From IMG/VR virus record IMGVR_UViG_3300025117_000050, positions 1-64,000 of that record: a DNA stretch of 64,000 nucleotides. The stretch is one strand, 5' to 3'. The notes below the pieces were generated by a model. The model had not been told where the DNA came from and ran no database searches. It worked only from the letters and a program-made list of their open reading frames with translations. This document shows, piece by piece, positions 3,760 through 50,086 of this stretch; the first letter of the stretch is position 1; each line of letters opens with the position of its first letter. Source of the DNA: a virus. A program made the translations under genes and the position numbers.

Positions 3760-4323
3760 ATGAGGATGAATAATATTAGAAATGAATATGTAATAAATAA
3801 AAAATCAGCGTATATGAAACTTAAAAATAAGAAAGAAGAAATATATAAAGTATTTATTGATCATGAAGATATTGAAAAAATAAAACATTATAGATGGCAT
3901 CTTGAATATTATAAAACAGCAAAATGTTATTATGTTCGCACAACTATTCATCTTGGCATGATTGATGGTAAAAATAAATCTAAATGTATACTTCTTCATT
4001 CAATGATTATGGGCGTAGAAAAGAATACAATTATTGATCATAAAAATCATAATCCATTAGATAATAGAAAAAAGAATTTAAGAATTGTTGAAGCAAGTAA
4101 TAATTCTGCTAATAGAAAAGGTGCTAATTCAAATAATAAAACTGGTGTGAGAAATGTACATTTAATTAACAGGTATGGCGGTAAACAAATTTATATGGTA
4201 CAAATTATGAGAAAAGGAGAAAGATTTAGTTGGGAATTTGAATTAAATCAATTTGATGAAGCATGTATATTTGCTGAAGAAAAGAGAAAAGAATTATTTG
4301 GAAAATATGCAGGAAATGGTTAA
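3760..4323 (+). CDS. HNH homing endonuclease with AP2-like DNA-binding domain
   Basis: 187 residues. The middle has the HNH_3 pattern LHSMIMG, IIDHKNHNPLDNRKKNLRIV (about residues 83-114), with the metal-binding DH and DNR..NLR typical of free-standing phage endonucleases. The C-terminal 60 residues (NNKTGVRNVHLINRYGG to FGKYAGNG) match an AP2-like DNA-binding fold. A close paralogue lies at 10196, ending in the same FGKYAGNG. The usual role is to cut an allele lacking the gene and copy itself in. No good ribosome site precedes the ATG at 3760. Confidence 0.85.
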   Translation: MRMNNIRNEYVINKKSAYMKLKNKKEEIYKVFIDHEDIEKIKHYRWHLEYYKTAKCYYVRTTIHLGMIDGKNKSKCILLHSMIMGVEKNTIIDHKNHNPLDNRKKNLRIVEASNNSANRKGANSNNKTGVRNVHLINRYGGKQIYMVQIMRKGERFSWEFELNQFDEACIFAEEKRKELFGKYAGNG

Positions 4324-4418
4324 TATACATATATTTGTAATTATATAAATATTTAAATAAAGAAATGATAAAATAATACATAAATACTATTTTATTACAT
4401 GATATAGAAATTAGAACA

Positions 4419-4448
4419 ATAGAGACTGAATAAAGTCTCTATTTTTTA
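4419..4448 (+). terminator. Rho-independent terminator
   Basis: AATAGAGACT/AGTCTCTATT stem with a six-base loop and a run of T. It ends the transcript carrying the HNH gene. Confidence 0.75.
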
Positions 4449-4459
4449 TTTAAAATTTC

Positions 4460-4488
4460 TTGTATTCTTTGTTGAATCGTGCTATAAT
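4460..4488 (+). promoter_or_regulatory. promoter
   Basis: TTGTAT, 17 bases, TATAAT (4483-4488), just after the terminator and 36 bases before the next ATG. Confidence 0.65.
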
Positions 4489-4524
4489 TAGAATTATAAA
4501 ATAAATAATCAAGGAGATAATCTA

Positions 4525-4892
4525 ATGACTCGAACATACAATGCTTATGAGATTAAGAAAAAATGTGAAAAACTATATTCTGATATTATCTGTTTTAATA
4601 TTTACAATTTACCTACAAAAAATGCACAATGGAAACTATATAATGAAAACTTAATAAAATAGTAAACGAGGTAGCAGGCGAATATGATAGTTTGAATATA
4701 TACGATGAAATATTCACAATTGGAGATAAAATTAAGATACATTACCTGGATATAAAAATTGCAATTATAAAGTCAATAACTGTAAAATATAATACTTGCA
4801 CATGGATGCCTGAATTTATCGTTGAGTCAATGGATATTCACGATAATAGTGTTTATAAAACTTCTTATGATACTTGTATTCACTTGGCATGA
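4525..4892 (+). pseudogene. small phage protein, frameshifted
   Basis: ATG at 4525 follows AAGGAG. The frame ends at 4662, but the next frame continues directly (NKIVNEVAGEYDSLNIYDEI) to 4892. One extra A in the run at 4646-4649 would give one protein of about 122 residues ending in CIHLA. No family recognised. Confidence 0.6.
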
Positions 4893-20452: not shown

Positions 20453-20476
20453 AATAGGAAGGAAGTGAACAATAAA

Positions 20477-20635
20477 TTGCCACATAAAATCATAAGAAAA
20501 CTTGATGATTTAGGTAGAATTCACATTGCAAAAGAAATAAGAAAACAAGTAGGCATTGAAGAAGGTGACGCTATATTAATGGAAGTTAATGAAAATGGTC
20601 AAATTGTATTGACTAAGGTTATGGATAAAGAGTAA
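20477..20635 (+). CDS. SpoVT/AbrB-domain (MazE-fold) DNA-binding protein
   Basis: 52 residues from TTG 20477 (GTG at 20465 also possible). HKIIRKLDDLGRIHIAKEIR then QVGIEEGDAILM and NGQIVLTKV is the swapped-hairpin AbrB domain found in transition-state regulators and MazE-type antitoxins. The usual P in GRIVIPKE is A here. A strong own promoter and likely autoregulation. With two MazF-like proteins at 39597 and 43333, it is a candidate distant antitoxin, though not adjacent. Confidence 0.8.
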   Translation: MPHKIIRKLDDLGRIHIAKEIRKQVGIEEGDAILMEVNENGQIVLTKVMDKE

Positions 20636-37977: not shown

Positions 37978-38184
37978 ATGTTAAAAATTAAATATTATTG
38001 TGGACTAAGTTTAGATTTAAATCAAGAAAAAGAATGTGAGAGTCAAGGGATAATAGAATTGGATGACGATGATATTGAAGAGTATCATGAAGGATTTTAT
38101 AGTATGGTATGTCCTTCATGTAAAAGAGAATTATATCAGTCAGAGGATCATTTTGAATTTATTGATGGAATGGAAGGAGAATAA
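37978..38184 (+). CDS. zinc-ribbon protein
   Basis: 68 residues, GAGAAGGAGAATA site. YYCGLSLDLNQEKECES and MVCPSCKRELY. Acidic. Two bases to the next gene. Confidence 0.6.
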   Translation: MLKIKYYCGLSLDLNQEKECESQGIIELDDDDIEEYHEGFYSMVCPSCKRELYQSEDHFEFIDGMEGE

Positions 38185-38186
38185 CC

Positions 38187-38594
38187 ATGACAACTAAATT
38201 GTTATTAGAATTTACATTTGTAATATTCTTATTGCAAGTATATAAAACTAAATCATACTTCACACCATTAAAAATTAAGCAAGAAAAATTTGATAGTAAT
38301 AGAGAAAATGTAGAAAAGTTTATAAATAAGAAAATATTAAATAAGATATTTATAATATTATCAATGTTATATGGCTCAATATATTTTACCTTCTACATAA
38401 TTGGAATAGAATTATTTAAAGAGACAAATTTAGTAGTATTTCCTATATTGATGATTGGATTGTTAACATATGATATTGTTAAAACTTTGTTAGAATTTAA
38501 AAGTGGTATGTTGTGGAATAGTATAATAGATAAATTAGAACATCCAATGACTACAGCATACTTGTTATATTTTGTTTATTATGTTTTGAGATAG
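38187..38594 (+). CDS. multi-span membrane protein
   Basis: 135 residues, AAGGAGAATAACC site. Spans at about 5-20, 53-72, 82-100 and a hydrophobic end near 122-135; a basic loop between the first two. No family recognised. Confidence 0.6.
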   Translation: MTTKLLLEFTFVIFLLQVYKTKSYFTPLKIKQEKFDSNRENVEKFINKKILNKIFIILSMLYGSIYFTFYIIGIELFKETNLVVFPILMIGLLTYDIVKTLLEFKSGMLWNSIIDKLEHPMTTAYLLYFVYYVLR

Positions 38595-38623
38595 GATTAT
38601 AATTAGAAAAAGGAGATAAAAAT

Positions 38624-38938
38624 ATGAAACGATTTAAATGCAAAGTAGAAAGAGTAAATGAATACATAATTGAGTTTGATGAAAATATATTAAATGAGGA
38701 ATGGATGGAATACTTTAGAAGTGTATTTTTTAATTATCATGAATTGGATGAACATGCTGAACATATAGCACAAATGAGAGCGAGATTTAAAAAAAGTTTT
38801 ATTGAAGGTTATGGTGTGCCGTTGATTGATGGTAAAGTATCATATTTTGCTAATGAAAAGAGTGTTAATAAAGCAATTAATATTATTATTGTAAGTGAAG
38901 ATGAAGATTATGAAGTAGATGTAGAAGAGATTATTTAA
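38624..38938 (+). CDS. hypothetical acidic protein
   Basis: 104 residues, AAAGGAGATAAAAAT site. C-terminus IIIVSEDEDYEVDVEEII. Ends 13 bases before the phosphoesterase. No family recognised. Confidence 0.65.
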   Translation: MKRFKCKVERVNEYIIEFDENILNEEWMEYFRSVFFNYHELDEHAEHIAQMRARFKKSFIEGYGVPLIDGKVSYFANEKSVNKAINIIIVSEDEDYEVDVEEII

Positions 38939-38951
38939 AGGAGATTAAATT

Positions 38952-39464
38952 ATGAACTTATTATTCAGTTCAGATATGCACTATTATCATAAAAATCTAT
39001 CAATACACAGAGGATTTAATTCAATAGAAGAGATGAACGAGTTGATGATTGATAATCACAATGAAAAAGTTACTAAGAATGATCATATTTATATTCTAGG
39101 TGATTTTTCATTTGGTACAGTTGAACAAACATTAAAAATATTAGATAGGTTAAATGGAAATAAATATTTAATTATTGGAAATCACGATGAAAAAATGTTA
39201 AAGAGCAGAGAAGTGGTTAGTAAATTTGCATGGGTTAAAGATTATTATAAGTTAAAACATAATGGATTGAAAATTATATTATCACATTATCCATTTTATA
39301 GATGGGATTGTAGTCATTATGAATCGTTGATGTTTTATGGGCATATTCATGATCAAAAATTAGATATTGAGATTAAGAATTCTTATAATGTAGGTGTTGA
39401 TGTTAATGATTATGAACCTGTGAGTTTGGAGGAGATATTAGGGAAGATTGATTATAAAAAATAA
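38952..39464 (+). CDS. calcineurin-like metallophosphoesterase
   Basis: 170 residues. All family motifs are present: SSDMHYYH (Asp8, His10), YILGDFSFG (Asp51), LIIGNHDEKM (Asn77, His78), ILSHYPF (His about 113) and YGHIHDQ (His about 133, 135). They bind two metal ions and hydrolyse phosphoesters. Small stand-alone versions are common in phages, with unknown substrates. Ribosome site AAAGGAGATTAAATT. Confidence 0.9.
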   Translation: MNLLFSSDMHYYHKNLSIHRGFNSIEEMNELMIDNHNEKVTKNDHIYILGDFSFGTVEQTLKILDRLNGNKYLIIGNHDEKMLKSREVVSKFAWVKDYYKLKHNGLKIILSHYPFYRWDCSHYESLMFYGHIHDQKLDIEIKNSYNVGVDVNDYEPVSLEEILGKIDYKK

Positions 39465-39500
39465 TTACAAAAATTAACATAATATTAATATAAAAAATGA

Positions 39501-39582
39501 TTGCATAGGACGAACTCTGGTTATAATATATATTATAAAGCACTATAGAAGTGTTACAAAAGTGTAAAATAATATATATTAT
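39501..39582 (+). promoter_or_regulatory. promoter with paired palindromic operators
   Basis: TTGCAT (39501-39506), 17 bases, TAATAT (39524-39529). A perfect palindrome of 18 bases (39521-39538, TTATAATATATATTATAA) covers the -10; its 14-base core recurs at 39569-39582, just before the ribosome site. Two operator-like sites fit autoregulation of the MazF-like gene. Confidence 0.55.
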
Positions 39583-39596
39583 AAGGAGTGATTTTA

Positions 39597-40037
39597 ATGA
39601 TTATTAAAACTCAAACTGCTAATGCTGTTAATGCTCAATGTTATAGGAAAGAGGAAGAGGTTGATTGGAGGTCGTGGTGTCCTAAACGTGGAGAGATTTA
39701 TTTGTGTCAGTTAGGAAATGAAGGTTTATTATATTCAGAAATTAAGGGTTATCGTCCAGTTTTAATAGCATCAAATGATATAGCGAACAGGCATAGCCCA
39801 GTAGTTACTATAATTCCATTAACTTCCAGTCAAATAAAAAATAACTTACCTGTTCATGTTAAAGTAGGGGTAGAAGAAGGGTTGCGAAATTTGAGTTTAA
39901 TTTGTTGCGAGCAGACTAAAACTGTGTCAAAAAATAGAATGTTTATAAACGGTAGTTTAGTTAAAATATGCAAATTAAGTAATGAATTAATGTGTAAAGT
40001 GGACAACGCATTAAAAATACAATTCGGATTAGTTTAA
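39597..40037 (+). CDS. MazF/PemK-like endoribonuclease-fold protein
   Basis: 146 residues from ATG 39597 (AAGGAGTGATTTTA). Residues 28-145 follow MazF: CPKRGEIYLCQLG, GYRPVLIASNDIANRHSPVV (Arg53 and Ser67 at the usual catalytic positions), TIIPLTS, LPVHVKVG, CEQTKTVSKNR, KVDNALKIQFGL. MazF toxins cut mRNA at short sites. No antitoxin gene is adjacent; its promoter has two palindromes. A paralogue is fused to an HTH domain at 43333. Confidence 0.85.
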   Translation: MIIKTQTANAVNAQCYRKEEEVDWRSWCPKRGEIYLCQLGNEGLLYSEIKGYRPVLIASNDIANRHSPVVTIIPLTSSQIKNNLPVHVKVGVEEGLRNLSLICCEQTKTVSKNRMFINGSLVKICKLSNELMCKVDNALKIQFGLV

Positions 40038-40184
40038 TTAAAATAGTGTGGTTAGAATGTTAATATAATTATACATATTAATAAAAGGATGTGATGTTAT
40101 TTGATTGTGTGAAAATTTATAAAGTATTGTGTTTTTAGTTTATTGGTTTGGATTGAAATAATAAAATATTAAAGGAGGATAAAT
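40038..40184 (+). other. leader with micro-ORF before homing endonuclease
   Basis: AAAAGGATGTGAT leads to TTG ATT GTG TGA (40100-40111), a three-codon frame. Otherwise T/A-rich with AAAGTATTG and TTTATTGG, distantly like the stem-loop element, but without clear pairing. Confidence 0.25.
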
Positions 40185-41543
40185 TTGTTAGTTAAAAATC
40201 AAAAAGTTAAAGTTAAATGGAATGGAGCACATAGAAAATATTATGAAGAAAAAGGTTATCCATTTACTAATTATGGTGATGAATTAGAGATAGACATAAA
40301 AGATTTAGCACCAAAAAGTCAAAAATATGTTTTAGTTAGTTGTGATTATTGCGGTATACCATTTATGAGGAGGTATTGTAATTACAATACAAGAAAAGAA
40401 AAATACGGTAAAGATGATAAAGATTGTTGTGATGATTGCAGAGTACATAAAAGAGAAGAAACATGTTTAGATAAATATGGTTTTAAAAATGCTGTTCAAG
40501 TAGAAGAAATACAAAATAAAATAAAAGAAACTATTAAGGAAAAATATGGAGTAGAATATATATCTCAAGTAGAAGAAATTAAAAATAAAAAGAAACAAAC
40601 TTGTTTAGATAGATATGGAGTAGAATATACCTTGCAAGTTCCAGAGATTAGAGAAATGATTATAGAAACTAATATAAATAAATATGGAGTTGAAAATCCA
40701 TTTCAAAATGAAGAAATTAAAGAAAAAATCAGACAAGTCAATATGGATAAATATGGTGTAGAATATCCAATGCAATTACCTGAAATAAGAGAAAAAAGTC
40801 AAGAAACAACTTTTAAAAATCTTGGTGTTAAATATGCTATGCAATCTTATAAAACACAAGAAAAAAATAAACAATCTATTCAAGATAAATACGGATATAC
40901 AAATATTTTTCAGATACCAGAGATAAAAGAAAAAATAAAGAAAATTAATATTAAAAAATATGGAGCGGAAAATCCTTTAAATAATAAAGAAATTAGAGAA
41001 AAAGCTAATAAAACTATAAAAGATAAATATGGTGTTGATAATGTTTCACAGAATCCAGAAATACAAGCAAAAATTAGACGTTCATTTTATAAAAATGGTA
41101 CTACTCCTACTTCAATTCAACAAAGATATATTTGTTTTTTAGTAAACGGTAAATTAAATTTTCCTATTGGAAGAACAAATGCAGATATATTGATAAATAA
41201 TAATATAATTATTGAATATGATGGTGGTGGACATAATCTAAGTGTAAAAATAGGAAATATAACGCAAGATCAATTTAATAGAAAAGAAATTAAAAAATAT
41301 TATTTTTTAAAAAGTAAAGGATATAAGATTATTAGAATTGTATCTGCTAAAGATAATTTACCTAAAGAAGAGAAAAGATTAATTGATGCTATAAATATAG
41401 CAATTGATTATTTAAATCAAAATCATTCTTGGTTTGAAATAAATATTGATGATGGAAAATTAAGATGTATTTGTTATGAAAAAGATTATAATTTTGGAGA
41501 ATTAAGAAGAGGAACAAAAGAAAATTTAGCTATAAATACATAA
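40185..41543 (+). CDS. putative homing endonuclease with repeats (DUF7487-like)
   Basis: 452 residues from TTG 40185 after AAAGGAGG. N-terminal zinc cluster CDYCGIPF and CCDDC. Then about eight repeats of 27-28 residues with the core KYGVE(Y/N)..Q..EI..KI (residues about 88-300), of the sort that reads DNA. The C-terminus (INNNIIIEYDGGGHN, then KKYYFLKSKGYKIIRI) resembles an EDxHD/Vsr-like nuclease: E-Y-D-G-G-H and a following strand. Likely a mobile endonuclease inserted between the MazF-like and DUF5317 genes. Confidence 0.7.
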   Translation: MLVKNQKVKVKWNGAHRKYYEEKGYPFTNYGDELEIDIKDLAPKSQKYVLVSCDYCGIPFMRRYCNYNTRKEKYGKDDKDCCDDCRVHKREETCLDKYGFKNAVQVEEIQNKIKETIKEKYGVEYISQVEEIKNKKKQTCLDRYGVEYTLQVPEIREMIIETNINKYGVENPFQNEEIKEKIRQVNMDKYGVEYPMQLPEIREKSQETTFKNLGVKYAMQSYKTQEKNKQSIQDKYGYTNIFQIPEIKEKIKKINIKKYGAENPLNNKEIREKANKTIKDKYGVDNVSQNPEIQAKIRRSFYKNGTTPTSIQQRYICFLVNGKLNFPIGRTNADILINNNIIIEYDGGGHNLSVKIGNITQDQFNRKEIKKYYFLKSKGYKIIRIVSAKDNLPKEEKRLIDAINIAIDYLNQNHSWFEINIDDGKLRCICYEKDYNFGELRRGTKENLAINT

Positions 41544-41582
41544 ATATTATATATTAAAAATAAAAGGAGGATTATATATTTA

Positions 41583-42176
41583 TTGATTGAATTTATTATA
41601 GGAGCATTTTTATATGCTAAATTTAAAAAAGGTTATAAGTTAAAATACATATTTAAATACCCATACATATTTGCGATAATACCACCTTTATTATGTGTTT
41701 TACTATACATATATTTAGAATATTGTGTTTTTAATCAGCAATATTGGTTTTTCCCTTATCAACATATAATAAAGACTACAACGCTTATAAGTTATGTTCC
41801 GTTGATTTATATATATAATTTATATTATAATGATATATATGAAAATGATACATTAAAATCATTTTTAACATCTCCTGCTAGTAAAACTACATTTTGTTTA
41901 GGATTAGGCTCATTTTTAAACTATATGGCAATTATCTCTAACAATATGAAAATGCCAGTATTTCCCAGTAATTGTTATTGGACTGGTTATATTAAACCTG
42001 AATTCATTAATGATGGTTTACATGTGCTAGGTGATGCTTATACTAAAGCAATCCCCTTATGCGATTGGATCGATTTTGGAATATATGTAGCTAGTCCAGG
42101 TGATATATTAATAAGATCATTTGCATTTTTAATTATTTATCATTCTATAAAAAATTCTAATAAAATGATAAAATAA
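41583..42176 (+). CDS. DUF5317-like membrane protein
   Basis: 197 residues from TTG 41583 after AAAGGAGG. Spans at about 1-13, 29-46, 66-80, 103-120 and 172-188. The segments SNNMKMPVFPSN and VASPGDILIRSFAF fit the DUF5317 family of clostridial membrane proteins (NxxKMPV and SPGDI). Unknown function. Lies just upstream of the Agr-like genes, with a promoter between, so an accessory role in that circuit is possible. Confidence 0.65.
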   Translation: MIEFIIGAFLYAKFKKGYKLKYIFKYPYIFAIIPPLLCVLLYIYLEYCVFNQQYWFFPYQHIIKTTTLISYVPLIYIYNLYYNDIYENDTLKSFLTSPASKTTFCLGLGSFLNYMAIISNNMKMPVFPSNCYWTGYIKPEFINDGLHVLGDAYTKAIPLCDWIDFGIYVASPGDILIRSFAFLIIYHSIKNSNKMIK

Positions 42177-42208
42177 TTGTTGACACATAATTAACTCTGT
42201 GGTAATAT
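42164..42208 (+). promoter_or_regulatory. promoter of Agr-like operon
   Basis: TTGACA (42180-42185), 17 bases, TAATAT. AATGATAAAATAATTG abuts the -35 box, as at 24841. It overlaps the end of the DUF5317 gene. Confidence 0.7.
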
Positions 42209-42244
42209 ATAAATAGAAAAAGTTGCTAAGGAGTTGATAGAGAA

Positions 42245-43039
42245 ATGATACATGATATTACAAATGCTTTGTTAAATTTTTTACTTGTAAGTGTTTTGGA
42301 GGAGTTTGTATGGTTGTTAATAACCATAATATTATTAAAAAGATTTGATTTGCTTGATAGATATAGATGGAAAGAGAGTATGCGAGAATTTTTAATACCT
42401 ATCTTACCAACTGCACTTTATATCAATTTATCTAGATATGTTTTACATATGCCTAGAATAATAATATTATTTGGATGTATATTTATATTTTATGGTTTGA
42501 CATTATATATAATAAAGAAAAATTCATTTATAGATGAAAAATTACCATATTTAAAAATATTAATGTTTGTATTTATAGGTATTCTTATTATAGGAATAAC
42601 AGAATTGATTTATATGCCAATAATTTTATATATTATACAACAACCAGTAACAATAATGAATCAAAATATTTTAATGAATTTTGCATTTTCAATACCATCT
42701 AGAATATTTCAAATATTATTAATTCTTGCATTAATTTATAAATATAATGAAATTAAATTATTCAGCAATATAATAAAAGATAAAGTATTATTAATTATTA
42801 CAGTGTTGTTTTTAAGTATTATATTGCTAATAGTATTTATTACAACAAAAATTATTCATAGTTATTGTTTAATTTTAAACTTTTCTTTATATTCACAAAT
42901 ATTAATTGGAATTAGCATAACAACAATTATAACATTAATAATATTTTTTTATCTTATTCCAATTAATTATTTAATAAATAAAATGTTTTTACTTAACAAA
43001 TCACATCAAAATATGTTTGATGATGATTATATAGATTAA
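42245..43039 (+). CDS. AgrC-like membrane sensor lacking a kinase domain
   Basis: 264 residues, AAGGAGTTGATAGAGAA site. Begins like clostridial AgrC sensors (DITNALLNFLLVSVLEEFVW, LLITIILLKRF) and has about seven hydrophobic segments (10-30, 47-62, 68-92, 104-130, 145-165, 178-202, 210-246). AgrC then continues into a His-kinase of about 200 residues; here the frame ends at NKMFLLNKSHQNMFDDDYID, with no His box or ATPase motifs and no continuation in other frames. AgrD follows 21 bases later. It may be a decoy receptor, a regulator of the host AgrC or a non-kinase signal receptor. Confidence 0.65.
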   Translation: MIHDITNALLNFLLVSVLEEFVWLLITIILLKRFDLLDRYRWKESMREFLIPILPTALYINLSRYVLHMPRIIILFGCIFIFYGLTLYIIKKNSFIDEKLPYLKILMFVFIGILIIGITELIYMPIILYIIQQPVTIMNQNILMNFAFSIPSRIFQILLILALIYKYNEIKLFSNIIKDKVLLIITVLFLSIILLIVFITTKIIHSYCLILNFSLYSQILIGISITTIITLIIFFYLIPINYLINKMFLLNKSHQNMFDDDYID

Positions 43040-43060
43040 AATAGAAAGGAGGGAAATTTC

Positions 43061-43180
43061 ATGAAAAAGTTTGCAATTATTACTTCTTTAATTGGTATTA
43101 TCGGCATTATCTGTGCAAATTGTATTAATTCTGCTTGGACATTTAACCAACCGAAAGCACCATCTATGTTAGTTAAGTAA
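43061..43180 (+). CDS. agrD: AgrD-like cyclic-peptide propeptide
   Basis: 39 residues, GAAAGGAGGGAAATTTC site. Architecture of AgrD: an N-terminal amphipathic/hydrophobic helix (MKKFAIITSLIGIIGIIC), a core (NCINSAWTF, 20-28), then the recognition tail NQPKAPSML like the QPxxPxSL tail of clostridial AgrD. By alignment on QP the ring residue is Ser24, giving a five-residue SAWTF lactone; Cys21 would need a larger ring. AgrB (44627) would cleave after Phe28 and cyclise. Too short for usual ORF filters. Confidence 0.8.
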   Translation: MKKFAIITSLIGIIGIICANCINSAWTFNQPKAPSMLVK

Positions 43181-43199
43181 TTTATAACTACATAGAATA

Positions 43200-43235
43200 T
43201 TTATAGTAGAGGATGATTGTTTTCTCTACTATAAA
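43200..43235 (+). terminator. attenuator-like hairpin after agrD
   Basis: TTTATAGTAGAG/CTCTACTATAAA stem (43200-43211 with 43224-43235), 12-base loop, no long T-run. Between agrD and the next promoter; may reduce read-through or stabilise agrD mRNA. Confidence 0.5.
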
Positions 43236-43257
43236 TACAAAAAATAAATATAAATAC

Positions 43258-43286
43258 TTGTATTCTGGAGGATAGTATGGTAAAAT
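43258..43286 (+). promoter_or_regulatory. promoter of HTH-MazF gene
   Basis: TTGTAT, 17 bases, TAAAAT, 46 bases upstream of the start codon. Confidence 0.5.
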
Positions 43287-43332
43287 AATAGATGTAATAT
43301 ATATAAAATATTAAATTGAGGAGTGATTAATA

Positions 43333-44229
43333 ATGTCAATATTATTTGGTAAGAAGAATGTATTAAAACCTACTTCTACAAATTCTATTTCTGAAATAAC
43401 AAAGAAAGAGTTAGCTTACAATATAAGAGTTGCCGTAGGTCATCGAAGTATTACTCAAGTCTGTAATATATTAAAAATGGTCGATCCAAAACCATTAGTT
43501 GACTTAATAAAAATGAATTATAATGAATTACCTGATAGACAATTACTTAGAAAAATTGCATCTGCAAGCGAAGGTAGGGTTTCTTATCAAAACCTTTATT
43601 CTGTCTGCGGTTATTCCGAATTTGATTCTGAAGAAGATCGTAGTTGGGCAAAGTGGGTTCCTGAACGTGGTAGTTGTTATATGATTGATTTAGGATGGAA
43701 TATGGATAGTGAGCAAAATTCTGTGCGTCCGGCAATAGTGATGCAAAACAACAAAGGCAATCAATACTCAGGAACAACCGTTATTATCCCTATATCTTCT
43801 CGTTCTAAAAAATTTTCTTCACAGATTCATGTATTATTAGAAAAAGAATTAGGATTTTTACGGGAATGTCAATGTTTTCCAGAACAAATTCGCTGTGTTT
43901 CAAAAAGGAGGTTCTTCTATAATTCTGTACCTTATAAAATCACTACTTTACCAGAACATAAATTATTAGAAATCAAAAACGCACTTGAGTTTGAACTAGG
44001 TTTTGAGCCTTTATATTTTGACGAAGAAAAAATATTTAAATTAATTTCTCATATTCGTTCTTTAGAAAATAATATTAAAATCAAAAAATCACATAATCTA
44101 ATTGATATATTAAATCAAAAAATGGATGATCTAAAAGAATACTGTTCAAAATATCATAAGAATCACAAGATTATCTTACAAGAATACGATAGAATCAACA
44201 ATTGCGGTTACAATGCAGTATCCATATAA
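43333..44229 (+). CDS. HTH-MazF fusion protein
   Basis: 298 residues after GAGGAGTGATTAATA. Residues 20-97 look like an XRE-type helical DNA-binding/repressor end (LAYNIRVAVGHRSITQVCNI, then LLRKIASASEGRVSYQNLYS). Residues 108-225 are MazF-like: WVPERGSCYMIDLG, SVRPAIVMQNN (Arg132), SGTTVIIPISS, QIHVLL, EQIRCVSKRR, LEIKNALEFELGF. The last 65 residues form a coiled coil. Between agrD and agrB, it is a candidate output of the circuit: RNA cleavage and DNA binding in one chain. C-ending codons are more frequent than in flanking genes. Confidence 0.8.
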   Translation: MSILFGKKNVLKPTSTNSISEITKKELAYNIRVAVGHRSITQVCNILKMVDPKPLVDLIKMNYNELPDRQLLRKIASASEGRVSYQNLYSVCGYSEFDSEEDRSWAKWVPERGSCYMIDLGWNMDSEQNSVRPAIVMQNNKGNQYSGTTVIIPISSRSKKFSSQIHVLLEKELGFLRECQCFPEQIRCVSKRRFFYNSVPYKITTLPEHKLLEIKNALEFELGFEPLYFDEEKIFKLISHIRSLENNIKIKKSHNLIDILNQKMDDLKEYCSKYHKNHKIILQEYDRINNCGYNAVSI

Positions 44230-44291
44230 AACAACAAATCCAACCAAAATAAACAAATAAAACTAAAACAAAAAAAAGGAGATCAATTAAA

Positions 44292-44633
44292 ATGATAATC
44301 TTTGATGAAAAACAATTAAAATACTTATTTAATAAATACAAAATAAGATATAAAATATTTGAAGAAACAAATATTCTACTTATAGATAGTGGTCTTGATG
44401 AGTGGTTAATCAAGTATCAACATGGAAGAGATCAACCATATTGCCTTATGCACAAAAATAAATTAAAACAAACTAAAAGGTTCCATGTGCAGAGATGGTT
44501 GTCAAATTTTTATCAATCACTTGATAGTCTATTGTCACATAAAAATATTTTTGTAGATCATTCAAGTTCAAAAAATACATATAAAAAATATAGAAATAAT
44601 AAAATAAATAATAAAAGGAGAAAAAGTTGTTAA
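44292..44633 (+). CDS. hypothetical basic protein in Agr-like cluster
   Basis: 113 residues, AAAGGAGATCAATTAAA site. Aromatic and basic with a disordered Lys/Asn tail; no HTH or catalytic motif recognised. Overlaps the AgrB start by 7 bases, so the two are translationally coupled. Confidence 0.6.
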   Translation: MIIFDEKQLKYLFNKYKIRYKIFEETNILLIDSGLDEWLIKYQHGRDQPYCLMHKNKLKQTKRFHVQRWLSNFYQSLDSLLSHKNIFVDHSSSKNTYKKYRNNKINNKRRKSC

Positions 44634-45421
44634 AATATATAAAAAACTACATAATAACATTTCGTTATATCAAACTATTCTCATATTGGAATGCAAGATA
44701 TTTGCATAACAAACTAAAAGAAGAAAGAATTAGAGAATCACAAAACTTACATAATCCACATAAAGAAAAACATAAATATTATTATATATTGCAAATGATA
44801 ATTAAAAAATTATTTCAAATAATTAATAAAATAATTTCTTTAACTCCATTAGGAAGAAAACTATCATCGTACATAACTGAAAAATATTCACAATATAAAC
44901 AGAAAGAGAAAAAACCTAAAAAAATATACAACAGATACACCTACTATTATGGTCTTCAAATAATCATCGGAGGCATAAATAAATTCCTTCTACTAATCAT
45001 ACCAGGCTTACTATTTAACATCTTGCCGCAACTATTACTAACCACGTTATCATTTGTATCACTAAGAATATGGACTGGTGGTCTGCACTACAATTCTTAT
45101 ACCAAATGCAGCTACATATCACTATTATCCTTCACACTCACAGCACTACTATCAAAATACATCATATTAAATCAATTTATCACTATGTCAATATTTCTAT
45201 CTGTATTTATATTAATTTTAATCTATGCCCCTGTAGAACATCCAAACAGACCAATAAAAGAAAAAGAAAAAATTAAATACAAATTAATCGCATTATTTGT
45301 ATTAAGCACCTTAACTATTATCTATATGTTTACAAATAATGTTATTATCTGTAATTCTATTATATATGGGATATTATTAGCAGGTATAATTATGTTACCA
45401 ATTATAAATAAACTAAGATAA
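44627..45421 (+). CDS. agrB: AgrB-like peptide-processing membrane protease
   Basis: 264 residues from TTG 44627 (AAAGGAGAAAAAG). Residues about 100-264 are AgrB: YYYGLQIIIGGINKFLLLII, SLRIWTGGLHYNSYTKCSYI with catalytic His154 and Cys161 seven residues apart as in known AgrB, then YAPVEHPNRPI and two further spans. The first 95 residues are an unusual Lys-rich extension compared with the usual 190-210-residue protein. AgrB cleaves AgrD C-terminally and forms the ring in the membrane. Confidence 0.88.
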   Translation: MLKYIKNYIITFRYIKLFSYWNARYLHNKLKEERIRESQNLHNPHKEKHKYYYILQMIIKKLFQIINKIISLTPLGRKLSSYITEKYSQYKQKEKKPKKIYNRYTYYYGLQIIIGGINKFLLLIIPGLLFNILPQLLLTTLSFVSLRIWTGGLHYNSYTKCSYISLLSFTLTALLSKYIILNQFITMSIFLSVFILILIYAPVEHPNRPIKEKEKIKYKLIALFVLSTLTIIYMFTNNVIICNSIIYGILLAGIIMLPIINKLR

Positions 45422-45552
45422 TTATTAACATAATTTCGTAAATGGTCGATAAATGTCGGTAGGTGCGTATTGTTAATATGCTAAATATTATATAGAATAA
45501 TAGTATTAAAACATATTAATCACAAATTAAATTAAAATATGAATTTAGGCTA

Positions 45553-45608
45553 TTGTTTTTTTATTATTAAGGTATTATAATAGAACAAATATACAAACAA
45601 ATGTTCTA
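45553..45608 (+). promoter_or_regulatory. promoter with overlapping inverted repeat
   Basis: TTGTTT, 17 bases, TATAAT (45576-45581). TAGAACA (45581-45587) and TGTTCTA (45602-45608) form a perfect 7-bp inverted repeat with 14 bases between, starting in the -10 and covering +1: a good candidate repressor operator. Confidence 0.6.
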
Positions 45609-45861
45609 CAAACAAATAGAGGAGGAGATTGTTACGAATAAAACAGTTTACACAATAAAAGATGAAAATGACAAATATGTACATGGTAATAGTATTAAAA
45701 AAATTAATGAAAAGTATTATTATTCCCCATATTCATGTTTAGAAGATGGTTGTATTGCTTATACTAATAAAATAAGAGTAGAGGAAGCATTGACTACTCT
45801 TAAATTACATAATCAACTAGGTGGGCTAGGTCACAAATTTATTATTACGCTTGTTTCATAA
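45601..45861 (+). CDS. hypothetical protein downstream of agrB
   Basis: Up to 86 residues. The ATG at 45601 lies in the operator-like repeat and has no site; AGGAGGAG at about 45620 points to a later, non-standard start (ATT/GTT/ACG), giving about 76 residues. Beta-rich (TVYTIKDENDKYVHGN). Not recognised. Confidence 0.5.
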   Translation: MFYKQIEEEIVTNKTVYTIKDENDKYVHGNSIKKINEKYYYSPYSCLEDGCIAYTNKIRVEEALTTLKLHNQLGGLGHKFIITLVS

Positions 45862-45883
45862 TCAATAAATAATAATTTTTCTA

Positions 45884-45912
45884 TTGACATAGCATACTAA
45901 TACATATATAAT
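45884..45912 (+). promoter_or_regulatory. strong promoter of yopQ-mrpR-like operon
   Basis: Perfect TTGACA, 17 bases, TATAAT, 48 bases before the 45960 start. Confidence 0.8.
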
Positions 45913-45959
45913 AATCATTAATGAGATATTATATATAAATAAAAAAGAGGTGAGTAACT

Positions 45960-47336
45960 ATGCTTAATATTAAAAATGCTATGTTGATAAAAGAATTAAA
46001 ACCACTAATAATTAAATATGGAAACAATTCAAAAATTTATAATCTTGTTCACGAATCCTTTATTAAAAAGGGTTTAACGGGTAGTAATGCAAAAAATCTA
46101 TTTACAGGTAAACTACCATTAGAATCTTTAGATATCACTTGTCAAAAAGAATTATATTTATTATTTTCTTTTACTGATAGCATGAGAAAAGCATTAAATT
46201 CATTTGATGAAATGTCTAAAGATACTTTTGGTTCAGAAGAAGAGTACTCAAAATTAAAACTAGAAAATTATTTTACTCCTATGGAAATTGAAGAGTTTAC
46301 GGATTTCGTGATAGAGAAAGAAGAAATAAGTAGATATCCTTACAGATTAAAAAACATGTTAAAAGTTGGGGAAAATCACTATATAGGCATTATATCTGCT
46401 AGAGAATTATCTTGGATAGATGCCTCCAATGACATTGTTTATGATTTCGCTGTACAGCGTGATCCCAAAATTGATATATTTGGCATGAAACGTATTAATA
46501 CTGATTTAAAGAAAATAGATGAAATGACAGAGAAGTTACTTTCTGGCAATTACTTTTCAGATGAAATTAAGTTAAATGTTAAGAATGATGGTGAAGATCA
46601 TATCGAATTCGATTCAAAAGACGGAATTTATGGTGATCTTATTATTCATTCAGGAACAATAACTTGTTTTGACGGTTATCACAGAAAAGCAGCCAATTCA
46701 AAAGTTATGAATATTAATAATGAATTGCAATTTAATTGGAAACTAGGTGTTACTAACTATCCAGAACCTAAAGCAAAAAAATTCATGATTCAAATTAACA
46801 AACAAAAACCTATTAAGATTGAACACATCAGAAATATTGATGAAACAAGAAATGAAAATGTAATTGTCAATAATATTATCAATAATTCTAATTCCGAACT
46901 TGCTGATAAGATTAAAGATTCTGATGCAGAATTAAAACATGGTGGATTAACTAAAAAATCTATATTATCTTTAGCAATAGAAGAACAATATAAGGAATTT
47001 TTAGTTACTAAAATCAATAATATTGAAATATCTAATTGGATAGTAGAATTCACAAATCATTTAATGGGATTATATACTAACGAATTTTTATTTAATGTAG
47101 ACAAAACTAAAAAAATAAGTTATATTAATCATAAGAATATGTTTATGGGATATATCGCACTTTCAAGAAAATTGTATAAGCAAGATGATTGGAAAAATAA
47201 AACTAAAAAAATAATGGAAAGCGTTGATTTTAGCATTGATAATGATATTTGGAAAAGTATTAAAATCAATGAAGATAATTTAAATAAAACATCAAAGAAT
47301 GAATTATATAATATATTTATTAAAAAGCAGGTGTAA
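45960..47336 (+). CDS. YopQ-like DGYHR protein (DndB/ParB-fold type)
   Basis: 458 residues after AAAGAGGTGAGTAACT. FAVQRDPKID (163-172) and ITCFDGYHRKAAN (234-246) are the two signatures of DGQHR/DndB-like proteins with a ParB/Srx-like core. Size, motif and position directly before an integrase-fold protein match SPbeta YopQ (460 residues) next to YopR. In SPbeta these genes lie in the lysogeny region; YopQ's biochemical role is not settled as far as I know. Confidence 0.7.
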   Translation: MLNIKNAMLIKELKPLIIKYGNNSKIYNLVHESFIKKGLTGSNAKNLFTGKLPLESLDITCQKELYLLFSFTDSMRKALNSFDEMSKDTFGSEEEYSKLKLENYFTPMEIEEFTDFVIEKEEISRYPYRLKNMLKVGENHYIGIISARELSWIDASNDIVYDFAVQRDPKIDIFGMKRINTDLKKIDEMTEKLLSGNYFSDEIKLNVKNDGEDHIEFDSKDGIYGDLIIHSGTITCFDGYHRKAANSKVMNINNELQFNWKLGVTNYPEPKAKKFMIQINKQKPIKIEHIRNIDETRNENVIVNNIINNSNSELADKIKDSDAELKHGGLTKKSILSLAIEEQYKEFLVTKINNIEISNWIVEFTNHLMGLYTNEFLFNVDKTKKISYINHKNMFMGYIALSRKLYKQDDWKNKTKKIMESVDFSIDNDIWKSIKINEDNLNKTSKNELYNIFIKKQV

Positions 47337-47341
47337 AATAA

Positions 47342-48412
47342 ATGGTAAAACATAGAAACGGGAGAAAAAATTTAGCAGAAAGAGTGTTTAAGCATGATAG
47401 AGATGTTAAAGAAGAATTCTTAAAATCATTGAAACCCTCAACTGCTAATACTGTAAGAAGTATACTTTTTAAGGTAGATGAATATGAAGAATTAATTGGG
47501 AAAAGTATATATGATTTTAATTTAGATGATCGTGATGATTTTATTATATCTATGTTCCCTAATAAAAGTAAAGGTGTTATTAATACAACTAGATCATATC
47601 TGGTAGGATATATTAATTATTGTATTGACAATAACCTTGTTAGACATATGGAAAATAGATTTAGTTTAATCTCTAAAGATGATATAGATAATTATGTCAA
47701 TGATATGGCTATGCAAATGAAGTACCTGTCGAAGGAAGAAATTAAAGAAGCACAAAGTAAATTGGTTAATAATTGTGATAAATTAATTTTGCAATTAGTT
47801 CCTTTATCAGCCAGAGGTCGCACCGAAAAGGATAATACTAATGAAGAATTAATAAATTTAAGAGTGCAAGATGCTGTAGAATCTTACGAAAAAGGCAATC
47901 TAAAACTTTGGAATAATGATGGAGATTTTAGGTATATAAAAATTGATGATGAAACAATAGAATTATTAAAGAAAACTATAAATGATGATAAATATATCAT
48001 TAATAATGGAAGTGAATATAGTCGTAAAAGACATGATAAAAAACTTGGCAGAGGCATGGGAGAAAAAAGTTTCCCTTTAAATGATACTGGCTATGTTTTT
48101 AGAACTGCTGGCAAGAATAAAAGGGGTAAAGTTAAATCCAATTATTTTAATTCTAAAATTAATATAATAAAAGATTGGGTGGAGAATCCATTTATTAACA
48201 TAACTAATTTACACGCATCAGGTATGATTGATTATGTCATCCAATTAGAAAATGAAAAAGGAGAAGAATTAGATAATAACGACTATATAGATGTTTGTGA
48301 AAAATATTTATTTGGTAAACCTAGAATTTTGCCCAATGGTGAAAATGATTGGAGTATGTCAATATCAAAATTAAAGACAATGGTAAAAGATTATATTAAT
48401 ATTAAATCATAA
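47342..48412 (+). CDS. MrpR (YopR)-like integrase-fold repressor
   Basis: 356 residues, GCAGGTG site, 5 bases after the yopQ-like gene. Residues 22-110 resemble an integrase SAM-like N-terminal domain; LVPLSARGRTEKDNTNEELI (152-171) corresponds to the catalytic-Arg box. The HxxR box is degenerate (LHASGMIDYV at 290-299) and no clear active-site Tyr follows, as in SPbeta MrpR, a recombinase turned lysogeny repressor. Operon with the YopQ-like and DUF4046 genes. An active integrase is less likely. Confidence 0.7.
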   Translation: MVKHRNGRKNLAERVFKHDRDVKEEFLKSLKPSTANTVRSILFKVDEYEELIGKSIYDFNLDDRDDFIISMFPNKSKGVINTTRSYLVGYINYCIDNNLVRHMENRFSLISKDDIDNYVNDMAMQMKYLSKEEIKEAQSKLVNNCDKLILQLVPLSARGRTEKDNTNEELINLRVQDAVESYEKGNLKLWNNDGDFRYIKIDDETIELLKKTINDDKYIINNGSEYSRKRHDKKLGRGMGEKSFPLNDTGYVFRTAGKNKRGKVKSNYFNSKINIIKDWVENPFINITNLHASGMIDYVIQLENEKGEELDNNDYIDVCEKYLFGKPRILPNGENDWSMSISKLKTMVKDYINIKS

Positions 48413-48424
48413 GGATGTGAAAAA

Positions 48425-49279
48425 ATGGCGAAAAATAGTATTAACTTATCTGACTATGAAGATATAGAAGTTTATAATATGGTTAGGTTTGGAATTATAG
48501 GTAGATTTCCTAATAATTTTTGGGGTGGATTAGATACTTATAAAACTGCAAAAGACCTGACTAGATATATGTTTGAAAATATTCTTGAATGGAGTATAGA
48601 AGATATTAAGCATAAGGTAACAGCAGATATTTTTTATGAAAATAAACTTGGTAATATGCTAAAAACACTTTTTGATAATAATTTATTAGATGCATTGCTT
48701 AACGCATACCCAGAATTAGCAGATTGGGTAGAAGAAAAAAAGAATAAAATTATTATCGAAAAAGAACCAAGAGAAAAATATACAGATGAAGAGTTAATAG
48801 AAAATTTACAGCAAAAATATAAGGAATTAAATAGAACACCTTATATAAGAGAAATGTCTGAACCAGAAGGAAATGTTTATATATCAAGATTTGGTAGTTG
48901 GAGTAATGCTTTAATTCTTGCTGAGTTAATTGAGGACATATGTGTAGATGTAGATAATTCAGAAGAAGCAATTAATAAAGCGCAAAGGGAAATTAAAGAT
49001 TTTGCGTATAAAGTAGAAAGATTACCAACTAAAAAAGAAGTAGATAATTTATTTTCTCCTGGAGAATTAATATCATATTTCGGTTCTTTAAAAGGACTTT
49101 ATGATTATTTAAGTGAAGGTTATACAGAAGAAGAATTAATAAATATATTAATTGATAAAAGAAATAAATTAGGGAGAAATCCAATAAATAAGGATATAAA
49201 ATTCCCAAGACCAATTATCTTTATTGATAAATTCAATAGTTGGGAGAATGCCTTAAAAGAAGCAAGATTAGATGAATAA
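48425..49279 (+). CDS. DUF4046 protein with homing-endonuclease-associated repeats
   Basis: 284 residues, AAGGATGTGAAAAA site. Residues 10-110 fit DUF4046 (RFGIIGRFPNNFWGGLDTYK, IEDIKHKVTADIFYENKLGN). Residues 118-284 are three repeats of about 55 residues: YTDEELIENLQQKYKELNRT ... FGSWSNAL, PTKKEV...FGSLKGLY, YTEEELINILIDKRNKLGRN ... FNSWENAL, which match HNH-associated DNA-reading repeats. No nuclease motif. Probably DNA-binding. Third gene of the repressor operon. Confidence 0.75.
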   Translation: MAKNSINLSDYEDIEVYNMVRFGIIGRFPNNFWGGLDTYKTAKDLTRYMFENILEWSIEDIKHKVTADIFYENKLGNMLKTLFDNNLLDALLNAYPELADWVEEKKNKIIIEKEPREKYTDEELIENLQQKYKELNRTPYIREMSEPEGNVYISRFGSWSNALILAELIEDICVDVDNSEEAINKAQREIKDFAYKVERLPTKKEVDNLFSPGELISYFGSLKGLYDYLSEGYTEEELINILIDKRNKLGRNPINKDIKFPRPIIFIDKFNSWENALKEARLDE

Positions 49280-49298
49280 TTTAATCTTGCTTCTTTTA
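49259..49298. terminator. bidirectional terminator
   Basis: Perfect GAAGCAAGATTA/TAATCTTGCTTC stem overlapping the 3' end of the 48425 gene, followed by TTTTATTTAT. Separates it from the minus-strand gene. Confidence 0.8.
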
Positions 49299-49299
49299 T

Positions 49300-49533
49300 T
49301 TATGTCAAACCCTTAATCCATTTTTCAGCAGCTAAACAGCATCCTTCAAAACTATTGAATTTAATATCTTCATTCAAAGAAATATAAATAATATCGTTAT
49401 CACGATCTATCTGAAAGTGATAGTAATATGTATCAGGCATATAATAAATATACGCTTTACATCCTTTTGCTCATCTTGCTATGCTGACCCACGTAGGGTA
49501 TACTTTACGCTTTAATATTCTTTTAAATTTCAT
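49300..49533 (-). pseudogene. small minus-strand protein with in-frame TGA
   Basis: From ATG at 49533-49531 (AAGGAAGTGACATA upstream) a 77-codon frame, interrupted by TGA at 49473-49471 (WVSIAR*AKGCKAYIYYMPD; Trp would fit). Basic N-terminus, then DTYYYHFQIDRDNDIIYISL, GCCLAAEKWIKG. Only the second minus-strand gene found. Function unknown. Confidence 0.5.
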
Positions 49534-49753
49534 TATGTCACTTCCTTGATGATAAATTGGTTAAGCTATAAATGTTGTTTTTTGTCGATATTTATAAGAA
49601 TTTGCTGAATATTAATTAATATTATATCATTAAGTTAATATTTTGGGAATATTATAAGAGATATTGTAGTTTTGATGGTAATATATGATAATATATAGAA
49701 AAATATGGTAATAATCAATAAAAATACTAAAAATCTTGTTTTTCTATATTCAG

Positions 49754-49776
49754 AAACCCTTGTTTTATAAGGGTTT
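49754..49776. terminator. hairpin AAACCCTT/AAGGGTTT
   Basis: Same eight-base stem as the terminator at 12764, seven-base loop; no T-run on the + side. Confidence 0.45.
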
Positions 49777-49849
49777 GTGGGATCGGATTTCGTGATAAAA
49801 TAACTCTTTTGTGTTGAGTTAAATATTTGAAAAATAATTGAAATATTTC

Positions 49850-49878
49850 TTGCATTTATTTTTACATTGTGTTATTAT
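49850..49878 (+). promoter_or_regulatory. promoter
   Basis: TTGCAT, 17 bases, TATTAT, 55 bases before the 49934 gene. Confidence 0.6.
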
Positions 49879-49933
49879 ATGTGTAAGGTAAAAGTAAGTA
49901 AATAAAATATTAAAGAGAAGGAGAGATAATTTA

Positions 49934-50086
49934 ATGAGTAGCATACATGACAAACCAGAATTATTAATTCCACCAAAAGGTGTTTGTATGAACCCACCGA
50001 GATTACATAATTTTAATTGTGAAGGGTGTAAGTATTTTGAGGGATGCACTAATGAAAAGAAAGGTAATTATAAGAAGACTAAATAG
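49934..50086 (+). CDS. small Cys-containing protein
   Basis: 50 residues, AGAAGGAGAGATAATTTA site. GVCMNPPR, CEGCKYFEGC: a compact metal-binding pattern seen in phage orphans. Basic tail. Confidence 0.55.
   Translation: MSSIHDKPELLIPPKGVCMNPPRLHNFNCEGCKYFEGCTNEKKGNYKKTK

Follow-up and report, generated by a model that had tools for sequence, protein, structure and literature searches.

Introduction

In phage phi3T lysogeny is favoured by active host MazF, and the arbitrium system acts mainly by controlling MazF; the mechanism by which MazF promotes lysogeny was left uncharacterised (PMC10769878). The SPbeta genes aimR-aimP-aimX are located in the neighbourhood of yopQ-yopR, upstream of them. 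Agr genes in a phage are already known as well (phiCDHM1, PMC3901668). Here we describe a locus of the virus record IMGVR_UViG_3300025117_000050, a 96.7-kb SPbeta-like phage record, of which a stretch of 64 kb (positions 1 to 64,000, referred to as the window) was analysed. It encodes a MazF fused to a predicted helix-turn-helix (HTH) domain, termed HTH-MazF, within a cassette of Agr-type genes beside YopQ and YopR homologues. Since this phage-encoded MazF is joined to a predicted DNA-binding domain, the mechanism of MazF in lysogeny becomes directly testable. The preliminary description of the sequence had tied host MazF to arbitrium control in SPbeta-like phages, in accordance with the phi3T work.

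In the reading proposed here, to which we assign a probability of about 0.5, a phage-borne Agr-type pheromone circuit controls lysogeny in SPbeta-like phages and has HTH-MazF, probably acting as a DNA-binding regulator, as its intracellular output. As the same cassette is found at the same place in five other phages, it probably serves as a whole to regulate lysis and lysogeny in response to a signal, in a manner different from the known arbitrium system.

Results and Discussion

The conserved Agr/HTH-MazF cassette

The cassette genes and the adjoining lysogeny locus are arranged in the window as follows.

42245..43039, plus strand: polytopic membrane protein; orthologue directly 5' of agrD in 6/6 phages
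43061..43180, plus strand: agrD-like pheromone precursor MKKFAIITSLIGIIGIICANCINSAWTFNQPKAPSMLVK (sequence, six-way AgrD alignment, weak phrog_17065 match)
43333..44229, plus strand: HTH-MazF fusion protein (P0001), 298 aa, an open reading frame (ORF)
44292..44633, plus strand: small protein smallX; homologues between HTH-MazF and agrB in L016, L176 and L017
44627..45421, plus strand: AgrB peptidase with GGLH...C motif (Pfam PF04647, 9.1e-37)
45960..47336, plus strand: YopQ homologue (phrog_5732, 1.8e-62; profile matches including SPbeta YopQ)
47342..48412, plus strand: YopR/MrpR homologue, SPbeta master repressor family (Pfam MrpR_N_CB, 4.2e-13)

The position of HTH-MazF between agrD and agrB, noted in the preliminary description, was confirmed. 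By tblastn the YopR/MrpR homologue matched SPbeta yopR (1e-9) and Geobacillus virus E3 (1e-19); together with the YopQ homologue in tandem it marks, as judged by homology, an SPbeta-like lysogeny locus. The polytopic membrane protein gave no Pfam match.

P0001, AgrB, the membrane protein and YopQ, each used alone as query, returned no relatives, and alignments were needed. Alignment-based scans via the fusion led to L016, L176 and L017, and those via the membrane protein to L202 and L204, each with an HTH-MazF orthologue:

L016, 1341-2237
L176, 7998-8873
L017, 3986-4870
L202, 8102-8959
L204, 8092-8970

In 6/6 phages the gene order is membrane protein, agrD, HTH-MazF, (smallX) and agrB, followed by YopQ and YopR, which supports HTH-MazF as a constant member of this Agr-type peptide cassette. 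Between the window and L016 the rate of nonsynonymous substitutions (dN) in HTH-MazF is well below that of synonymous ones (dS) in every domain. With full architecture and gene order recurring in five phages and dN well below dS, the fusion is more than a chance occurrence. A search of 13 related records found the HTH domain restricted to the six Agr cassette phages. Ruminococcus loci that were matched by BLAST from residue 72 on turned out to be ordinary short MazFs.

In the alignment of the six AgrD proteins the flanks are conserved, whereas the four residues following a constant Ser differ in all of them (SAWTF, SAAWL, SFMGL, SHTLF, SLMWL and SWYLL). A variable core with shared flanks is the pattern expected for pheromones. 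For the window the core of the autoinducing peptide is likely Ser-Ala-Trp-Thr-Phe. As the AgrD of L017 has no Cys anywhere, a Ser lactone is the likely product. The His and Cys of the AgrB motif GGxH...C are conserved in 6/6 phages, and by these signatures, the variable AgrD core with its conserved P-rich tail and the peptidase residues of AgrB, the two proteins are assigned to their families.

Kinase, regulator and receptor components of known peptide systems were sought by profile searches. PF14501 (HATPase_c_5, the ATPase of AgrC-type kinases), the one kinase family covered, had no match in G000-G003, to which that search was confined, and LytTR (PF04397, AgrA-type regulator) had none in the six HTH-MazF phages. 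With neither detected in the phages covered, no protein of the cassette other than HTH-MazF emerged as a candidate DNA-binding output. AimR (NF038310) gave no match in G000-G003 and G050 and two partial matches below the cut-off in G051, compared to 2.7e-82 for the SPbeta control. Membership in the arbitrium family was rejected, as AimR was not detected in these genomes above the cut-off.

Domains of the HTH-MazF protein

Three regions can be distinguished along the chain.

43393..43608, plus strand: five-helix XRE-like domain, predicted to bind DNA, residues 21-92 (AlphaFold (AF2) model and structural alignment)
43657..44004, plus strand: MazF/PemK core, residues 109-224, with E127, R132, S155 and EQIR (Pfam, 4mdx alignment, residue table)
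44023..44214, plus strand: C-terminal helical tail, residues 231-294 (three AF2 helices)

PF02452 matches residues 111-219 with an E-value of 3.4e-17 and 63 bits, compared to a cut-off of 23.1, and the core aligns with the MazF structure 4mdx with a Z score of 10.3. R132 and S155 occupy the positions of R29 and T52 in E. coli MazF, E127 that of E24, and EQIR is kept at residues 184-187. With a Pfam match above the cut-off and the catalytic Arg, the Thr/Ser and the E24 position retained, the protein is, on sequence grounds, a member of the MazF/PemK family. The 298-aa frame at 43333-44229 with its MazF core, R132 and Ser/Thr position thus proved to be as the preliminary description had given it.

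The putative HTH end and the coiled-coil tail noted for the same chain could be upheld in part. The fold prediction suggested there for the N-terminus gave a confidently modelled domain of five helices at residues 21-92, with a predicted local distance difference test (pLDDT) of about 83-92 in an AlphaFold model built on an alignment of four sequences; without alignment the pLDDT is only 37. Residues 15-94 of the predicted model align with the XRE regulator 2ofy_B with a Z score of 9.6 and 2.7 Å over 76 aa (VIA-align). Pfam and PDB-sequence searches with this N-terminus gave no match, and the HTH models of Pfam found none in the five HTH-MazF N-termini scanned, so that the domain is XRE-like by predicted fold and not assigned to XRE/Cro-C1 by sequence. 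The tail is helical, with three helices at 231-294, whereas the coiled coil itself was not borne out by the model. The same tail is shared by the HTH-less MazF proteins of L018 and L083.

Toxin, transcription factor or output

Fused to an HTH autorepressor of its own, MazF could be a self-contained toxin gene serving plasmid-like stability or abortive infection, with the agr genes as mere neighbours. The catalytic residues (E, R, S/T and EQ) are intact in 4/6 cores (window, L017, L202 and L204), the gene is preceded by a possible promoter of its own, and Xre antitoxins often pair with other toxins (PMC2701414). We nevertheless consider this explanation unlikely: agrD and agrB enclose the gene in 6/6 phages, no conserved antitoxin adjoins it, and two copies have lost E24/Q-type residues while their cores are still under purifying selection (L016/L176 pair, dN 0.10, dS 0.63, from a simple counting method applied to this one pair). 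A classical type II toxin-antitoxin pair was rejected, with agrD on one flank, smallX or agrB on the other and no antitoxin gene adjoining. smallX has homologues upstream of YopQ in L083 and L188; being absent from 2/6 phages (L202 and L204), it is not an obligatory antitoxin. The antitoxin-type domain PF04014 was found only at 20492-20629 of G000 and not in G001-G003, G050 and G051.

The same two copies bear on the opposite possibility, a pure transcription factor in which the MazF fold of all members is a non-catalytic scaffold for dimerisation or ligand binding and the RNase is vestigial. In L016 and L176 the E24 position is changed to I, Q to M and RP to RN. Core and tail of the two proteins are 86 and 89 percent identical, whereas the HTH reaches 51 percent, which points to either faster divergence or exchange of the HTH, as if specificity and not catalysis had been exchanged. 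However, the retention of E, R, S/T and EQ in the other four copies is not easily accounted for unless catalysis or binding of RNA takes place, and a role confined to transcription appears improbable to a similar degree as the toxin gene.

MazF and peptide modules around YopQ-YopR in other phages

To place the locus in a wider context, 50 virus records retrieved by their similarity to MazF were inspected, 21 of which carry YopQ. In 9/13 lineages a MazF is encoded no more than 6 kb from YopQ, compared to 1.9 expected (P 6e-6), a count that includes the lineage of the query and relies on lineages grouped by eye. This linkage across lineages, together with the confinement of the HTH fusion to Agr phages, speaks against a moron for host takeover or counter-defence, whose MazF would degrade host mRNA or titrate host MazE independently of the peptide circuit. 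PHROGs places such proteins in the category moron/host takeover, and a second MazF is encoded 3 kb upstream; even so, this is the least probable of the explanations considered.

The neighbourhood varies between phages. In L018 a MazF with tail stands directly before YopQ-YopR, with no HTH and no Agr gene seen. L083 (3836-8199) carries a MazF with tail, an HTH-less TPR protein, a secreted 48-aa peptide, smallX, YopQ and YopR, and represents an RRNPP-like variant of the same YopQ-YopR-linked locus. In three further large phages AgrB, AgrD, a membrane protein and a LytTR-like protein are located just 3' of YopR. These Agr modules with LytTR-like regulators are found at:

L184, 10576-12376
L191, 10778-12560
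L189, 10993-12933 (reverse strand)

L187 (5126-6624, reverse strand) shows an arbitrium-like arrangement of an HTH-TPR protein and a 51-aa ORF upstream of YopQ; the former has a Cro/C1 HTH Pfam match and a partial AimR match below the cut-off. With Agr-type and RRNPP-like sensing modules beside YopQ-YopR (MrpR) and MazF recurring nearby, these loci suggest a modular make-up of peptide-controlled lysogeny in SPbeta-like phages.

Several findings weigh against HTH-MazF as the output of the Agr circuit. A profile comparison detected no similarity between the membrane protein and the membrane proteins of the other Agr modules linked to YopR. The HTH domain lacks a family match at the sequence level, and when the domain is small and made of helices, a Z score near 10 is no more than suggestive. 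The YopR-first phages SPbeta, Geobacillus E3, phi6255, Sundance and KKP_3916 have no nearby MazF; as such reference phages mostly lack it, the MazF-YopQ link is recurrent and not universal. Finally, the loss of E24/Q-type residues in L016 and L176 means that an RNase output is not universal either. The earlier suggestion of a self-encoded MazF as output switch of the circuit therefore holds in part: the protein belongs in 6/6 phages to the cassette, which lies directly upstream of YopQ-YopR, and is the sole DNA-binding candidate found there, whereas the altered copies do not fit an output by RNA cleavage.

Proposed role

From gene order and architecture we infer the following course for the proposed Agr circuit. 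AgrB would process AgrD and export the resulting pentapeptide, a Ser lactone, for which the polytopic membrane protein would act as a kinase-less receptor. HTH-MazF may then read out the signal, with its HTH binding operators near the cassette and the YopQ/YopR promoters and its MazF fold serving as dimer or partner platform. The copies with intact sites (window, L017, L202 and L204) could in addition be mRNA interferases favouring lysogeny, similar to host MazF for phi3T. In a more speculative extension, which we regard as possible and less probable than the output role itself, an SPbeta-like lineage has swapped the intracellular arbitrium receptor for a complete Agr-type cyclic-lactone system. 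Its membrane receptor would pass the signal to a derivative of MazF that binds DNA, with neither kinase nor response regulator in between; MazF, a host factor in arbitrium, would have become part of the phage circuit, and HTH and pheromone would diversify into separate communication groups.

Further features of the window

Additional elements were located around the cassette.

39588..40037, plus strand: second, free-standing MazF paralogue upstream of the cassette, with E, R, T and EQ kept (Pfam 4.9e-23)
41583..42176, plus strand: DUF5317 membrane protein, head of the cassette (Pfam 9.2e-13; same-place homologue in L016 (partial), L176, L017 and L204)
42180..42208, plus strand: promoter TTGACA-17-TAATAT upstream of the membrane gene (similar in L016, L176 and L017)
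43198..43237, plus strand: hairpin with 16-bp stem between agrD and HTH-MazF, no U-tract
43258..43286, plus strand: possible HTH-MazF promoter TTGTAT-17-TAAAAT with extended -10 TGG (consensus match only; similar element in other phages)
45884..45912, plus strand: promoter TTGACA-17-TATAAT upstream of yopQ (12/12 consensus match; similar in L176)

The 80-nt stretch with the hairpin has a folding energy of -19.4 kcal/mol (z -4.95), and a strong hairpin of differing sequence occurs at this gap in 6/6 phages; with the U-tract lacking, it is at most a possible intrinsic terminator. A short ORF lies between agrB and yopQ. Rfam gave no match over 38000-50000, PADLOC none among five proteins checked, and nothing clear emerged as repeat or operator motif common to the whole locus.

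The free-standing MazF is followed by a DUF7487/homing-endonuclease-like gene, and the same pair is present in L176 (MazF counterpart 4120-4542). A short AbrB/MazE-like protein is encoded at 20465-20635 of the window (PF04014, 4.3e-10), 23 kb from HTH-MazF. In L015 (3126-5471) a DnaB-like helicase ORF is apparently interrupted by an intein-like stretch, as judged by eye.

Comparison with known systems

In the open-access literature we recognised neither an HTH-MazF fusion nor a case of Agr genes working together with a lysogeny locus of the MrpR type, which is weak evidence with subscription papers and preprints outside the scope. The locus shares with the arbitrium of SPbeta and phi3T (AimR-AimP-AimX and host MazEF) a peptide circuit upstream of yopQ-yopR and, for phi3T, the central role of MazF. 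It differs in that no AimR was detected, peptide processing is of the AgrB type and the phage encodes its own MazF, joined to an HTH. Phage-borne agrB and agrD are likewise found in the agr3 locus of phiCDHM1, for which the main text describes a histidine-kinase agrC and neither a response regulator nor MazF (PMC3901668); here, HTH-MazF and an adjoining MrpR-type repressor are present and no HATPase_c_5 kinase was found in G000-G003.

Compared to MazF/PemK endoribonucleases such as B. subtilis EndoA (4mdx), fold and catalytic Arg and Ser/Thr positions are the same, whereas the N-terminal HTH, the helical tail, the lack of a conserved adjoining antitoxin and the altered active site in 2/6 copies set HTH-MazF apart. 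The MazF-like phage proteins of phrog_35650 resemble it in core and helical tail, with no N-terminal HTH aligned. The solitary MazF of Myxococcus xanthus with the transcription factor MrpC is similar in placing MazF in a developmental switch with a DNA-binding partner; there, the two are separate proteins and no phage is involved (PMC2701414).
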